A program made the position numbers and the translations under genes. Shown here one piece after another: positions 3,911-56,019 of a stretch of DNA of 62,020 nt. Position 1 is the first letter of the stretch. Every line of letters starts with the position of its first letter. Under the pieces are notes generated by a model. The model saw only the letters and a list, made by a program, of their open reading frames with translations, was not told the DNA's origin and searched no databases. Source of the DNA: a virus; the IMG/VR virus record IMGVR_UViG_3300023082_000008, positions 64,001-126,020 of that record; one strand, given 5' to 3'.

Positions 3911-3975
3911 AAAAGTAAGACCCGGCTGAGCCCCCACTTCACTCGTGGAATAAGGGAGAGCCGGGTCTTACTTTT
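3911..3975. terminator. Strong bidirectional intrinsic terminator
   Basis: AAAAGTAAGACCCGGCT at 3911-3927 pairs perfectly over 17 bases with AGCCGGGTCTTACTTTT at 3959-3975. The loop is about 31 bases. The T run at the 3' end and A run at the 5' end make it usable in both directions. It isolates the Ig-like/acidic pair from the redoxin and reductase genes. Confidence 0.9.
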
Positions 3976-6261: not shown

Positions 6262-6300
6262 CCCCCATCCGAACAACTGAAGCCTCGGATGGGGGTTTCT
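6262..6300 (+). terminator. Intrinsic terminator after the reductase
   Basis: CCCCCATCCGA (6262-6272) pairs with TCGGATGGGGG (6285-6295), 11 perfect pairs, followed by TTTCT. Confidence 0.88.
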
Positions 6301-6321
6301 GCATTAGAATTATTGAAGGCG

Positions 6322-6327
6322 TACAAT
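6322..6327 (+). promoter_or_regulatory. -10 element for the endolysin
   Basis: TACAAT ends 6 bases before the ATG at 6334, just after the terminator. This predicts leaderless endolysin mRNA. Confidence 0.6.
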
Positions 6328-6333
6328 TATGGT

Positions 6334-7176
6334 ATGAGCAAACCAATTAATGGAACCCAACTAAAGGCCGCTTTCAAGAAGTGGGACGTAGACGCTGAGT
6401 ATCTTAGCGGATTCGAGACCCGTGGCCGACCAGCAAGCCTCGGATGGGGCGACGTCAAGGGCATCGTCATTCACCACACTGCTGATGAAACTCAGTCAGA
6501 ATCTTATGTGAATTGGCTATTCAAGACAGGTCGAGCAGACCTCCCAGCCCCATTGTGCCACTTTGCAACAAACAAGAAGGGCAAGACATATGTAGGAGCC
6601 CTTGGTCGTGCAAATCACGCCGGTAAAGGATCAGCAAGCGTACTAGACCTAGTAAAGTCAGAAAAGTATGACGGATTTAATAAAGAACTAAAGGGCGGTA
6701 ATTCCAAGGATGGAAACGCAGTCTTTTACGGTAATGAAGTTATGTACCGTGGAGTTAACGGTTTCCACATGACTAATGAACAGTATCAGGGAGTTCTCAA
6801 GTTTTGTGCCGCGTTGTGCGACTTCCACGGATGGTCAGCACTTAGCATCATTGGACACCGAGAGTGGGCATCTACCAAGATTGACCCTGGCTATGTTGAC
6901 ATGGCCAAGTTGCGTCGCGACGTGCAGAAATTGCTAGACAGTAAGGATTCAGCACCAGCGCCGGTAGAAGTAGATAGCCCAACAACCCTCAAGGTTCAGA
7001 CATATTACGTAAACAAAGACGTAGTCAACGGTTACGACAAGCCCAATGGTAAATCAAAGAAGCAGCGCTCACGCAACTTCAAGTTGTACACCGTAGCCTA
7101 CAAAATTGTTAATGGCGAAACATGGGTGCGTCATCCAGCGGGACTATGGTATCGAGAAGCGGGTCTTCGTAAGTGA
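6334..7176 (+). CDS. Endolysin: N-acetylmuramoyl-L-alanine amidase with C-terminal wall-binding-like domain
   Basis: 280 residues. An amidase_2 (PGRP-type) domain cleaves the bond between muramic acid and the peptide stem. Zinc ligands and motifs: VIHHTAD (about residue 46), the CHFATNKKGKTYVGALGRANHAG region, and GHREWASTKIDPG (about residue 184). After a linker (SAPAPVEVDSPT), residues 215-280 form an SH3-like module with TYYVNKDVVNGYDKPNGK, probably the cell-wall anchor. Start chosen at 6334 behind the -10 box; an upstream ATG at 6289 would lie inside the terminator. The stop overlaps the nuclease gene (GTGA). The holin is 36 kb away. Confidence 0.92.
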   Translation: MSKPINGTQLKAAFKKWDVDAEYLSGFETRGRPASLGWGDVKGIVIHHTADETQSESYVNWLFKTGRADLPAPLCHFATNKKGKTYVGALGRANHAGKGSASVLDLVKSEKYDGFNKELKGGNSKDGNAVFYGNEVMYRGVNGFHMTNEQYQGVLKFCAALCDFHGWSALSIIGHREWASTKIDPGYVDMAKLRRDVQKLLDSKDSAPAPVEVDSPTTLKVQTYYVNKDVVNGYDKPNGKSKKQRSRNFKLYTVAYKIVNGETWVRHPAGLWYREAGLRK

Positions 7177-19504: not shown

Positions 19505-22500
19505 ATTACTAACATTGACCTACGCTTTAGCGGTTATGCTGACTTTCGTCAGGTACACCGCGAAGTAACGAAATTGGAAGCGGAAGTTGCAGGCTTAAAT
19601 AAGCAACTACAGTCGCAAGCATTTACCAATACAGCCCGCACACAGGCAGCCCAGTTTGCTGAAACACGCAAGCAGGCAAATCTTATGCAGCGTACATGGT
19701 CCGATGCAGCGGCATCAACTGGTATGTTTGACGTTTCCAGTCGAAAAATTCGTTCTCACACGGACGAATGGGTCAAGAACGTACAGCGCCAGCGCCTTTC
19801 ACTCCGAGACCTGATGTCTGATATGGGCTCATACAAGGCTGCTAGAAATGAGCAAATGCGTATGCAGCAGATGTCAATTGCATCTTTTGCGTCTGATAAA
19901 AACGGTAATCCATTAGCGTCTATTGCTATTCCACGTACTGCTCTTCGAGACACAATGTCTCTTCGTCAAGAACTAGGGTTTGCTGCACATGCTGCGGAGT
20001 CCATCGGTGTGCAAATGATCAACTCCGGAAAGAACATGCAGTGGGCCGGTAGACAATTGAGTATGGGATTTACAGCCCCACTTCTAGCAGCAGGTGCGCT
20101 ATCTGCGAAGTTTGCTTTAGATGTAGATAAGCAACTTGTTAACGTTCAGAAGGTTTATGACACTTACGCACAAACGCAGGCTGGACAGGAGAAGGAACTT
20201 GTTAAACTACGTCAAGACTCCCTGAGCCTTGCTAAGCAAACAGCCAAGGAATACGGTATGGCTGCGACCGATACTATCAGCATTATGAGCCAGTTGGCCT
20301 CTGCCGGACAGCGTGGAGATGCGCTACAAAAGAACACTAAAGAAACAGCACGTTTTGCAACACTTGGTGATTTTGACTCTGATAGCGCTGTTAACGCTAC
20401 CCGTACGCTTAAGGCAGTATTTGGTATTCAAAACGAAGAACTAGCCAAGTCCGTTGATTTCATGAACAACATTGAAAACTCAACTTCTCTCACCATGTCT
20501 GACATGGCCGAGGCTATTCCTACTGCATCAGCAGCCGTAAAGAATCTAAATGGTTCATACAAGGACATGCTTATTCTTTTGACTGCCATGAAGGAGCGTG
20601 GATTTGATCCTGGTGAGTCTGCAAACGCCCTCAAGGCCGCAGGTACTCGTTTGATTCGTCCATCCGGCAAAGTACAAGAAGAATTCCAATCTTTGACGGG
20701 TCAATCAATTACAGAAATACGTGACCGTAATCAGGGCGATTTGATTAAGACTTTGCTAGACGTAGGTAAGGCAACTGAAAATCTAGGAACTGCGCAGAAG
20801 CAGCAGGCAAGAGCAGCATTGTTCGGAACTGAACAGGCAGCCCGTCTGGGCGGTGCAATGGATGGTTTGATTGCAGCACAATCAGGAGTTGGTGAAACTG
20901 CAAAGGCAATGGAAGTTGCGCAAATGTCTGCCGCAGAGAATGCTGCAATTGCTGAGAAGGAAATGCGTCGTCAAACAGAGTCACTTTCGGGCAAGTGGAA
21001 GCGCGCGGTAGAAACCATTAAGGTACAACTACAGGGAATGGGAGAAGCCTTCATCGGTGCGGGAACGACTGTACTGACGGTTCTATCTACCCTGATTGAT
21101 ATGTTTGGTAGCCTACCAGAAGGAGCCAAGAAAAGTCTCGTATTTGTAGCCCTTCTTGCCGCCGCTGCTGGTCCCTTGCTTATGCTCATCGGTCTATCTC
21201 GAAATCTTGGTGGACAAGTAATTAAGTTGGCCGCTATGATGGTTCAGGGTGCCACCCGATTCAAACTGATGACAACTGAGCAGACAGTTGCAGCCAAGGC
21301 TGCCGAATGGTCCACACAAGTATTGAAGAAGGAAGGCGACACGGTCCAGATTTTGACACAACAGTTGACTGGATTGAGCAACGCATTCCGCGAAGCAGCA
21401 ACCGCTCAGGGACTCTTGAAGCCAACGACAACCCCAGTTGCTACAGGTCCAGTCGGTAAGAACGGACGACCACTTGCTGGCGCAGCATTAGCATCACATA
21501 ATGCACGTCTAGAGCGCGATCAGTATGGCACAAATAACCGCACTGAGATTATGGGAATGCAGTCCCGTGAACCCGGTGGCGTGAACAACCCAGAACGTTT
21601 GGCAGCAGCCGCTGATGAAGAACGCGCCTTGAAGTCAGCCCGAATTCGAAGCGCTGTAAACAAGGCGTCAGGCGCAGCCGGTATCGCTGCAATGGCCACA
21701 ATGATGACAACCTCTAACGGTGTAGCAAACAACATCGCTAAGTGGGGAATGCTTGCGGCTCTAGTTGTTCCAGCAATGGCAGGACTGCCTGGACTCATTA
21801 AACAGGGCGCTACTCGAATGGGTGCAATCGGTGTTCTGTCTCGTGCTGCCATGAACCCATGGACTGCTGGTGTGGCTGTAGTCGGAGTAGGTTTGTACGC
21901 ATGGTACAAGCATATGAAAAAGGCTCGTCAGGAAATGGACGATATCTACAACAATTCTGACAAATTGGCAAAGATTCTAGGTGCAGACCCACAGAAGAAG
22001 GCTGGCCCTGGAGCCGGTATTGGGAATGAACTTTCCGAAGCCCAGAAAGAGCAGGTTAAACTTAACAAGGAAACCGAAAAGGCCGCTAATTTGGCAGACA
22101 AGTTAGAAAAGGCATATCCAAAGGTTGTTGAGCGAATCAAGGAAGCAAGTACTCCACAGGACAAGTACAATGAGGCTCTACGTCAGGGTCTCAAGGTAAT
22201 CACTGACTTGGGTCTAAAGGGAGATGAAGCACAAAAGGTCGTTAAGGGTTTCCTAGACGCTGCCGACAAGGCTGCCTCTGAGCCCATTATGCTAAGATAC
22301 GGAATCAACCTAGATGATGGAAAAGAAGTAGAAAAGGCTCTTAAGGATCAGAATGCTCGCATTGCTAATGAGTTGAAGATGGACCTAGACTCATTGCCTG
22401 AGCGCCGCAGAAATGCAGCCAGCAATGATGTTATTGCTCCTATTCCAAAGATCACCGACGAGGACAAGTCTAAGTTGAAAGCAATTGGAAAGAACATGGG

Positions 22501-42330: not shown

Positions 42331-43137
42331 ATGCCAGACACTATGCACTGGGCATTCGTGGGGGACCTACAAATTCCCTACCATGACCCAAGAGCCGTAA
42401 CCCTGTGGATGGACGTCATGAAATGGTGGCGACCAAAGGCTATTGATTTCACAGGCGACATTGATGATCAACTGTGTTACAGTTCTTTCTCGGACGGTAC
42501 CACGGATGAATTCTTCTCTATCATCAAAAAGGCTGAGAACGATTCTCCTATGCCGTATGTAAAAGAGCAGGCACACGAAGCCAAGAAGTTTTACGAGGAC
42601 GTGCGCGGTAGCCACAAGAAGGCTGATCTACACTCTTCTTTAGGCAATCATGACGTGCGCATCAACAAGTACATCGACAAGAAAGCGCCCGGCTATCTTG
42701 ATCAAATCACACCAGAGAATATGTGGGGGTTGGATTCACTTGGAATTTCATGGAGAACCTACGACGATGTACCTTTTCAACGATATGGAGACATATACGT
42801 CCACCATGGAGCAACTACGACAACTACAGGACTGGCTGTCAAATCCGATATTGAATCATACAACATCTCGCTCGTCCGTGGTCACGACCATCGAGGTGGA
42901 GTAGTCTACAAGACTTATCCGATGACCGGTAGGGTATTGCAGGGCATGGGCACAGGCCACATGTGCAACCCTAAGGCGTATGGTCTACGGTACACTATTA
43001 ATCCTTCATGGGAACTTGGGTTTGGTATTGGTCACGTTTACGACAACAGTCAAGGCATCGAAGAAGTCAAGTTGGACTTTGTCCGTATTACCCCAGACTA
43101 TACTTGTGTAGTTGATGGAAAACTTTTTAGGGGTTAG
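42331..43137 (+). CDS. Calcineurin-like metallophosphoesterase
   Basis: 268 residues with the metal-binding motif set of the superfamily: FVGDLQIPYHD (D-x-H), DFTGDIDD (GD), LGNHDVRI (GNHD), VHHGAT and VRGHDHRGG (GHxH). It hydrolyses phosphoesters; in phages such proteins have been assigned DNA phosphatase, nuclease or cyclic nucleotide roles, and the substrate cannot be told from sequence. A GGAAGG site precedes the ATG. It stands just before the holin, from which it is separated by an element able to fold over the holin ribosome site. Confidence 0.88.
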   Translation: MPDTMHWAFVGDLQIPYHDPRAVTLWMDVMKWWRPKAIDFTGDIDDQLCYSSFSDGTTDEFFSIIKKAENDSPMPYVKEQAHEAKKFYEDVRGSHKKADLHSSLGNHDVRINKYIDKKAPGYLDQITPENMWGLDSLGISWRTYDDVPFQRYGDIYVHHGATTTTTGLAVKSDIESYNISLVRGHDHRGGVVYKTYPMTGRVLQGMGTGHMCNPKAYGLRYTINPSWELGFGIGHVYDNSQGIEEVKLDFVRITPDYTCVVDGKLFRG

Positions 43138-43145
43138 GCAATAGA

Positions 43146-43192
43146 TTTTCCTCCATTGTATAATGGGAGTATCCCAATGCATTGGAGGAAAA
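43146..43192 (+). promoter_or_regulatory. Holin promoter inside an inverted repeat that can mask the ribosome site
   Basis: TTTTCCTCCA at 43146-43155 is a perfect 10-base complement of TGGAGGAAAA at 43183-43192, which contains the holin ribosome site. The -10 box TATAAT (43159-43164) lies between them. RNA started at about 43171 lacks the left arm, so the ribosome site is free; readthrough RNA has both arms. A perfect 12-base palindrome (CCAATGCATTGG, 43174-43185) and GGGA-GTA-TCCC (43165-43175) add further structure. Confidence 0.7.
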
Positions 43193-43196
43193 CTAT

Positions 43197-43415
43197 ATGT
43201 GGACAAAGTTGTTCTGGAAAGACGCGGTAGAGCGCGTCATTTCAACCGCTGCGCAGGCAGCACTCGGCGTTATTGTAGCCGGTGGTATTGTAGGTTTAGC
43301 GACCTCCGCAGGTTGGATCATCATCGGCTCAGCAGCCGCAGCATCCTTGCTCAAGGCTCTTATCGCTGTGACCGTAGCAAGCAACGATATTTCACCGGCC
43401 TCACTGGCTAAGTAA
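43197..43415 (+). CDS. Holin (r1t-like), two membrane segments
   Basis: 72 residues: a charged N-terminus (MWTKLFWKDAVERVIS), then two hydrophobic segments, about residues 18-40 (AALGVIVAGGIVGLATSAG) and 41-62 (WIIIGSAAAASLLKALIAV), and a short polar C-terminus. The N-terminal FWKDA..R pattern is that of actinobacteriophage r1t-type holins. Holins pierce the membrane to release endolysin at a set time. It is 36 kb from the amidase. Start at 43197, five bases after GGAGGAAAA... (GGAGG 43184-43188); an upstream in-frame ATG-less GTG/TTG reading would add only a few residues. Confidence 0.85.
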   Translation: MWTKLFWKDAVERVISTAAQAALGVIVAGGIVGLATSAGWIIIGSAAAASLLKALIAVTVASNDISPASLAK

Positions 43416-54896: not shown

Positions 54897-55243
54897 TTGA
54901 TGAAGAAATTAGTGAAAATGAACCGGCGGTAAAGGCACTAAAGGCTATTGATTTTATTCAGACGGCTAAGGATTTCATTGATGACCCTGACTTTACTGAC
55001 TGCGTTGACATGGCCCTAACCCTAATCGTAAATCCAGATGCAGCATCAGTTAGAACGAGTCAACTAATCGTTAAACTGGAGGCTTACGCCTTAATTTTTC
55101 GTCTAGGATTTGCTTCTCACATGGGAATTGCGTCGATCAAGAACTCCGCACGCAAAAATATGTACAAGGAACTTTATCAGGGGCTAGATAAACTAGCCGA
55201 TTCTCTAAAATATATGGTCAAGAATTGGAATGATTTTCAGTGA
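54893..55243 (+). CDS. Hypothetical helical protein, 116 aa
   Basis: 116 residues, almost all helical (KALKAIDFIQTAKDFIDDPDF, SVRTSQLIVKLEAYALIF, YQGLDKLADSLKYMVKN). No family recognised. It overlaps neighbours by 4 bases on both sides; GGAG precedes the ATG. Its location between the PGDYG-like gene and the Cas4-like nuclease suggests a role with recombination proteins, but this is positional only. Confidence 0.66.
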   Translation: MIDEEISENEPAVKALKAIDFIQTAKDFIDDPDFTDCVDMALTLIVNPDAASVRTSQLIVKLEAYALIFRLGFASHMGIASIKNSARKNMYKELYQGLDKLADSLKYMVKNWNDFQ

Positions 55244-56019
55244 GTAAGTTGGAGGTAAGCATTCCAATTAGCGACGAGTATTTTAATTTTGATGTGGCTG
55301 GTCTAGGAGATAAACTAGAGGCCGCATATCTTGAACTTGGATATAAGAACACGGGCAAAGCAAAGATTTCATTTGCTCCATCATCTCTCGGGTATGGATC
55401 GGGCAGGTGTGCTCGTAACTGGTATTACAAGTTGACCGGTGGAATCGAACAGAAGGACGACGTAGACGCTCTACAGATTTCAAACATGGAAAATGGCACA
55501 GAGACACACGCTCGTATTCAAAGGATTTTTGAAATCTCAGGCACGTTGATTGAGGCCGAGAGAGAACTTAACACAATGGAAGACAAGGCTCTTCCTCCAA
55601 TTCGTGGTTTTGTTGACTTGATTGTTGATTGGAACGGCGAGGCGGTAGGGGAAATCAAAACAACAAAACAGGAAGCCTTCACTCTAAGAAAGGCAGAGGG
55701 CAAGCCTCTTGACTATCACGTCATTCAGTTGCTCATCTATATGCGTATTCTTGGAATCAACCGAGGCTTTATTCTGTACGAAAATAAGAATACAGGTGAG
55801 TGGCTCATCTTCCCAGTGATGATGACACCTGAGAACGAGCGAATTATCGAGGAGGCATTCGAATGGATGCGAGTCACTTATCAGTCTTATCAAGAAGAGC
55901 AGTTGCCAATGCGCCCATTCGAAAAAAGTTCCAAAGAATGTCTTTATTGCCCGTTCAAGAAATTTTGCTGGAAGGACGAGGCCGGGGTCAACCCCTTGCC
56001 GATTCTGCAAATTACATGA
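55240..56019 (+). CDS. Cas4/RecB-like PD-(D/E)XK exonuclease
   Basis: 259 residues. N-terminal cysteine (GRCARNWYY), GxxxH-like ENGTETHARIQ, the active-site strands IRGFVDLIVD and GEIKTTK (D ... E-x-K, about residues 124-147), QLLIYMR, and a C-terminal cluster ECLYCPFKKFCW. One N-terminal and three C-terminal cysteines fit a [4Fe-4S] cluster, as in Cas4 and AddB. These enzymes degrade DNA ends during recombination. No CRISPR array is visible, so it is a phage recombination nuclease. GTG start overlaps the previous stop. Confidence 0.87.
   Translation: MSKLEVSIPISDEYFNFDVAGLGDKLEAAYLELGYKNTGKAKISFAPSSLGYGSGRCARNWYYKLTGGIEQKDDVDALQISNMENGTETHARIQRIFEISGTLIEAERELNTMEDKALPPIRGFVDLIVDWNGEAVGEIKTTKQEAFTLRKAEGKPLDYHVIQLLIYMRILGINRGFILYENKNTGEWLIFPVMMTPENERIIEEAFEWMRVTYQSYQEEQLPMRPFEKSSKECLYCPFKKFCWKDEAGVNPLPILQIT

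Follow-up and report, generated by a model that had tools for sequence, protein, structure and literature searches.

The window, that is, the whole stretch of DNA analysed here (62,020 bases), comprises bases 64001–126020 of a 126,020-base virus record. Its gene order (tail fibre, small genes, HNH, metallophosphoesterase [MPE], holin, HTH-type and small genes, DnaB-like helicase) is that of Stanwilliamsviridae Streptomyces phages, with structural and tail genes upstream of the holin gene and replication genes downstream. The MPE gene is syntenic with those of Streptomyces phages and shares ∼67% DNA identity with the Stanwilliamsviridae ones; no relative of it was found among 84,980 prokaryote species (one genome each). 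The 72-residue product of the next gene is a genuine r1t-type holin: it matched PF16945 with an E-value of 2.4e-8 and 34.4 bits, which exceeds the curated cut-off of 26.9, and phrog_443 (holin) with an E-value of 3.8e-12. Its ATG lies at 43197; a TTG at 43182, on the edge of the right hairpin arm, was set aside as an alternative start, as it lacks an SD of its own. Searches of the window for Rfam families and tRNAs gave no match. The features of the locus are as follows.

42331–43137, + strand: MPE gene, upstream of the holin gene (phrog_221, E 9.5e-55), stop codon at 43135–43137
43138–43161, + strand: left (5′) strand of the masking hairpin, with the core anti-SD arm TTTTCCTCCA at 43146–43155
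43159–43164, + strand: TATAAT, −10 box of the predicted holin promoter, in the hairpin loop
43164–43176, + strand: apical hairpin TGGGA-GTA-TCCCA inside the loop (fold prediction)
43171, + strand: predicted transcription start, placed by a distance rule 7 nt after the −10 box
43174–43185, + strand: palindrome CCAATGCATTGG, overlapping the right arm by 3 nt
43183–43192, + strand: right (3′) core arm TGGAGGAAAA, containing the SD GGAGG at 43184–43188
43197–43415, + strand: holin gene, 72 aa, Phage_r1t_holin family (PF16945 and phrog_443)

A reading made from the sequence alone had proposed that a perfect 10-base inverted repeat covers the holin ribosome site and carries the holin −10 box in its loop. 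Both points were borne out: TTTTCCTCCA and TGGAGGAAAA are exact reverse complements separated by 27 nt, the SD lies inside the right arm, and TATAAT lies between the two. The repeat is, however, only the core of a near-continuous hairpin (43138–43200) that pairs the holin SD. In the MFE structure of RNA 43120–43240, the left strand is paired at 43138–43144, 43146–43155, 43157–43161, and 43164–43168, with partners up to 43200, where the right-arm helix adjoins and partly enters the ATG. As this helix is longer than the 10-bp repeat, half of the −10 box is itself paired. The predicted energy of this readthrough RNA (−45.9 kcal/mol) was far below that of shuffled sequences (−25.6 ± 3.2; z −6.3; 0 of 200 as low). 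A sequence similar to the apical hairpin, TGGGTATATCCCA, follows the −10 box in one relative (L017).

A repeat of 10 bp is nothing unusual by itself. Arms of at least 10 bp with loops of 3–60 nt occur at 11 distinct loci of the window, several of them terminator-like (27 registers counted, versus 1–11 in first-order Markov simulations). It is the placement over an SD that is beyond chance. An intrinsic terminator was considered and rejected for the holin hairpin, the right arm of which is followed by CTATATGTGG without a T run; the locus is also absent from the terminator-like sites. Elsewhere in the window, 3911–3975 holds a perfect inverted repeat of 17 bp, AAAAGTAAGACCCGGCT, around a 31-nt loop, and a 10-bp repeat at 55223–55269 encloses in its 27-nt loop the GTG at 55240 with which a gene starts.

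The predicted holin promoter lacks a good −35 element (the best, TAGGCA at 43135–43140, has a spacer of 18), and its −10 box falls short of a proper extended −10. The whole record has 26 copies of TATAAT on the + strand and six on the − strand, several + copies lying at gene junctions. No promoter-dependent masking of this kind was seen at the other TATAAT or TACAAT sites of the genome that precede an SD and an ORF. The 12-bp palindrome CCAATGCATTGG, which had been described as lying just before the ribosome site, is present, but not wholly before the right arm. The further suggestion that it is an operator or a second hairpin found no support: it is one of 19 such palindromes in the genome, has no second copy in the 126 kb, is absent from relatives, and does not block the SD of the short RNA. 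It was therefore rejected as an operator.

The accessibility of the SD was expressed as the cost of opening it, calculated as a difference from ensemble free energies; all folds are energy-model predictions and not co-transcriptional. In the predicted readthrough RNA, the holin SD is fully paired, and opening it would cost 16.0 kcal/mol. RNA starting at 43171, 3′ of the left arm and thus devoid of it, folds without the masking helix (z −1.3), and the cost falls to 2.2 kcal/mol. Shifting the start site by ±3 nt did not change this result, and shuffling the upstream segment lowered the cost to 2.5 ± 1.4 kcal/mol (p 0.01). When the 75 SD-preceded ORFs of the 126-kb genome were ranked by occlusion, the holin SD came first (17.0 kcal/mol; the second cost 8.0, the median ∼3). 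At the level of prediction, this agrees with the earlier proposal that readthrough RNA hides the ribosome site while promoter RNA lacks the 5′ arm, as do the lineage-specific arms of relatives.

The MPE–holin gap was compared in 38 distinct promoter-bearing sequences. In Stanwilliamsviridae and their environmental kin, a promoter is kept in this gap, mostly as TGnTATAAT, whereas the arms are not kept. Promoter-dependent masking is predicted in six lineages; in each, the stretch of RNA 5′ to the transcription start finds its pairing partner in the SD region, or in the start-proximal leader, of that same lineage. Their arms and SD opening costs (kcal/mol, readthrough versus promoter RNA) are as follows.

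Window: TTTTCCTCCA/TGGAGGAAAA, 16.0 versus 2.2
Boydwoodruffvirinae: for example, AGACCTCCC/GGGAGGTTT, 6.8–18.2 versus 1.2–3.5
L052: ACCTCCT/AGGAGGT, 8.9 versus 2.7
L030: TCCTTA/TAAGGA, 6.2 versus 1.8 (shuffle p 0.09)
L018: CTCCAAT/ATTGGAG (by eye), its left arm sharing bases with the end of the −10 box, 13.1 versus 5.8
L065: GTGTTATAC/GTATACAC (by eye), adjoining the start codon, 6.7 versus 1.1 (shuffle p 0.05)

The individual shuffle p-values for L030 and L065 are modest. An alignment-free arm-swap test compared the pairing of each upstream region with the downstream region of the same lineage and with those of the others. Swapping arms between lineages weakened the pairing: only 11 of 40,320 permutations matched the native combination across eight lineages, and none of 20,000 across 14. 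In Riptide, the holin ranked first of 116 for SD occlusion within its own genome. Another 28 relatives, nearly all of which have a short MPE–holin gap and no evident internal promoter, gave SD opening costs of no more than 2.6 kcal/mol, and further freshwater relatives were likewise open where a holin SD could be assigned. Among related phages that infect soil bacteria, several are predicted to share the masking logic while differing in arm sequence.

The closest isolated phages, which belong to two sister clades of the Annadreamy and BillNye types (Loccivirinae), keep the promoter but leave the SD unmasked. Here, an inverted repeat is wrapped tightly around the −10 box, and at most loci the SD is at least as accessible in the long RNA as in the short one; the Annadreamy locus (L001) is a borderline exception (8.4 versus 5.3 kcal/mol, p 0.10). 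Because per-sequence duplex and stem shuffles were weak at most of these loci, the sister clades were left out of the masked count. The BillNye-type repeat, AACTACTCT/AGAGTAGTT, has arms of 8–10 bp, and that of L014, AGCTACCTCT/AGAGGTAGCT, is changed on both sides relative to it. Repeats with arms of ∼5–10 bp that enclose the −10 box, change in pairs from one phage to another, and leave the SD unmasked were seen at L009, L003, L012, L013, L014, L016, and L118–L120 and at L002, L005, L043, L045, L048, L121, and L122. These repeats may be DNA operators or have another RNA role. In L043, L046, L048, and L122, a second hairpin (e.g., TTCAAGGGC...GCCCTTGAA) spans the MPE stop codon.

The MPE–holin gap is best read as a promoter set inside an RNA-masking hairpin, which probably insulates the dose of holin from readthrough RNA. 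RNA arriving from upstream would carry both arms and fold so that the holin SD is buried, and would therefore yield little holin; RNA begun at the holin promoter (∼43171) would lack the left arm and expose the SD. The amount of holin would then follow its own promoter only, and not the upstream traffic. We infer promoter activity, the start site, the existence of readthrough RNA, and the effect on translation. A role in timing, with the holin held back until a late promoter fires, is not supported: the genes before the holin are structural and those after it serve replication, so that the readthrough RNA may itself be the later RNA.

The main rival, which we consider improbable, is translational coupling: a ribosome finishing the MPE gene would peel off the left arm and so tie holin synthesis to upstream translation. 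The core arm does begin ∼6–9 nt past the upstream stop codon in several lineages, and removing the RNA up to 10 nt past the stop frees the SD in L030 (1.9 kcal/mol), L052 (3.1), and L026 (1.4), in which coupling is possible. The window, by contrast, keeps 12.6 kcal/mol at that point and 10.2 at 12 nt past the stop, and the arms of L065 and L018 are situated well past the stop. Coupling, moreover, would not call for a promoter conserved on the 3′ side of the arm, and in compact relatives it occurs with no hairpin at all.

Still less probable is that the inverted repeat around the −10 box binds a phage regulator as a DNA operator, the RNA fold being a by-product. The repeats of the BillNye and Annadreamy type, snug around the −10 box (with arms of 8–10 bp in BillNye) and leaving the SD unmasked, would suit such a role, and HTH genes are close by. 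The arms in the window, however, are separated by 27 nt, the 126 kb contain one copy of the full repeat (and one further copy of a single arm elsewhere), and the arm sequences vary between lineages, tracking the local SD region. That a 10-bp repeat merely happened to fall here is very unlikely: there are 11 repeats of such size in the window, but the fold z of −6.3, the first rank of 75 for SD occlusion and, above all, the recurrence in relatives with lineage-specific arms largely refute it.

Insulation from readthrough, the reading we prefer, may extend to endolysin genes. In Riptide, Evy, EGole, and Jay2Jay (Boydwoodruffvirinae-type), an anti-SD arm stands beside a TATACT box upstream of the endolysin gene (at 20110–20165 in L126, Riptide, and in L239, L242, and L244), for example, ACCTCCTT-TATACT-AAGGAGGT, after a terminator. 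In those four, opening the endolysin SD is predicted to cost 7.4–12.9 kcal/mol in the long RNA versus 2.0–5.0 from the predicted start; the gene is unlinked to that of the holin, ∼31 kb away in Riptide and Evy. Endolysin masking was not found in MindFlayer, Yaboi, Annadreamy, Faust, or BillNye. The window's own endolysin gene (Amidase_2) has a terminator upstream and no such masking arrangement: at 6262–6350, a terminator follows the ribonucleotide reductase gene and precedes the endolysin gene, where TACAAT lies a few bases before the likely ATG (6334) without a strong SD, possibly giving a leaderless message. It is conceivable, though doubtful as a general rule, that many phages of the group insulate unlinked lysis genes (the holin and some endolysins) by a lysis promoter inside an anti-SD hairpin, the arms of which changed repeatedly while the logic was kept.

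Folding of readthrough RNA over a ribosome site that is left free in RNA from an internal promoter is known from IS10/IS50/IS200-type elements, in which it protects against transposase synthesis and the arms come from the transposon ends; in the window, the protected gene encodes a holin. RNA structure at the start region of a holin gene also tunes output in the sdi hairpin of lambda S, which governs the proportion in which two starts of a single transcript are used and does not discriminate transcripts by promoter. When a holin is mistimed, the host dies before virions have been produced. Nothing usable was found in the literature on transcription in this phage family or on a holin precedent.

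The closest parallel is phage T4, in which long transcripts of genes e (lysozyme), soc, 49, and I-TevI sequester the SD or AUG in a helix, reducing lysozyme synthesis from long gene e transcripts 100-fold; as the promoters lie in the region of the 5′ strand, promoter-started RNA lacks this strand and is translated (PMC3014915). The window locus appears to work in the same way. Like gene e, it is predicted to mask a lysis-gene start in long RNA: the SD is paired in the predicted readthrough RNA and exposed in the promoter RNA, an arrangement retained in six lineages and absent in the two sister clades. T4, however, uses gp55 late promoters (TATAAATA) with a known early/late order, whereas the holin −10 box is sigma70-like (TATAAT) and not that of a phage late promoter with its own sigma factor. 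The gene is that of a holin, structural genes lie upstream, and the phage belongs to an unrelated group infecting Actinobacteria. The kind of control would thus be that of T4, but not the T4 late system.

If this reading is correct, phages unrelated to T4 arrived at the solution known from its lysozyme, here for a holin, and RNA structure would tell transcripts apart by where they started. As isolated Streptomyces phages exist, they would offer a clean and testable case.
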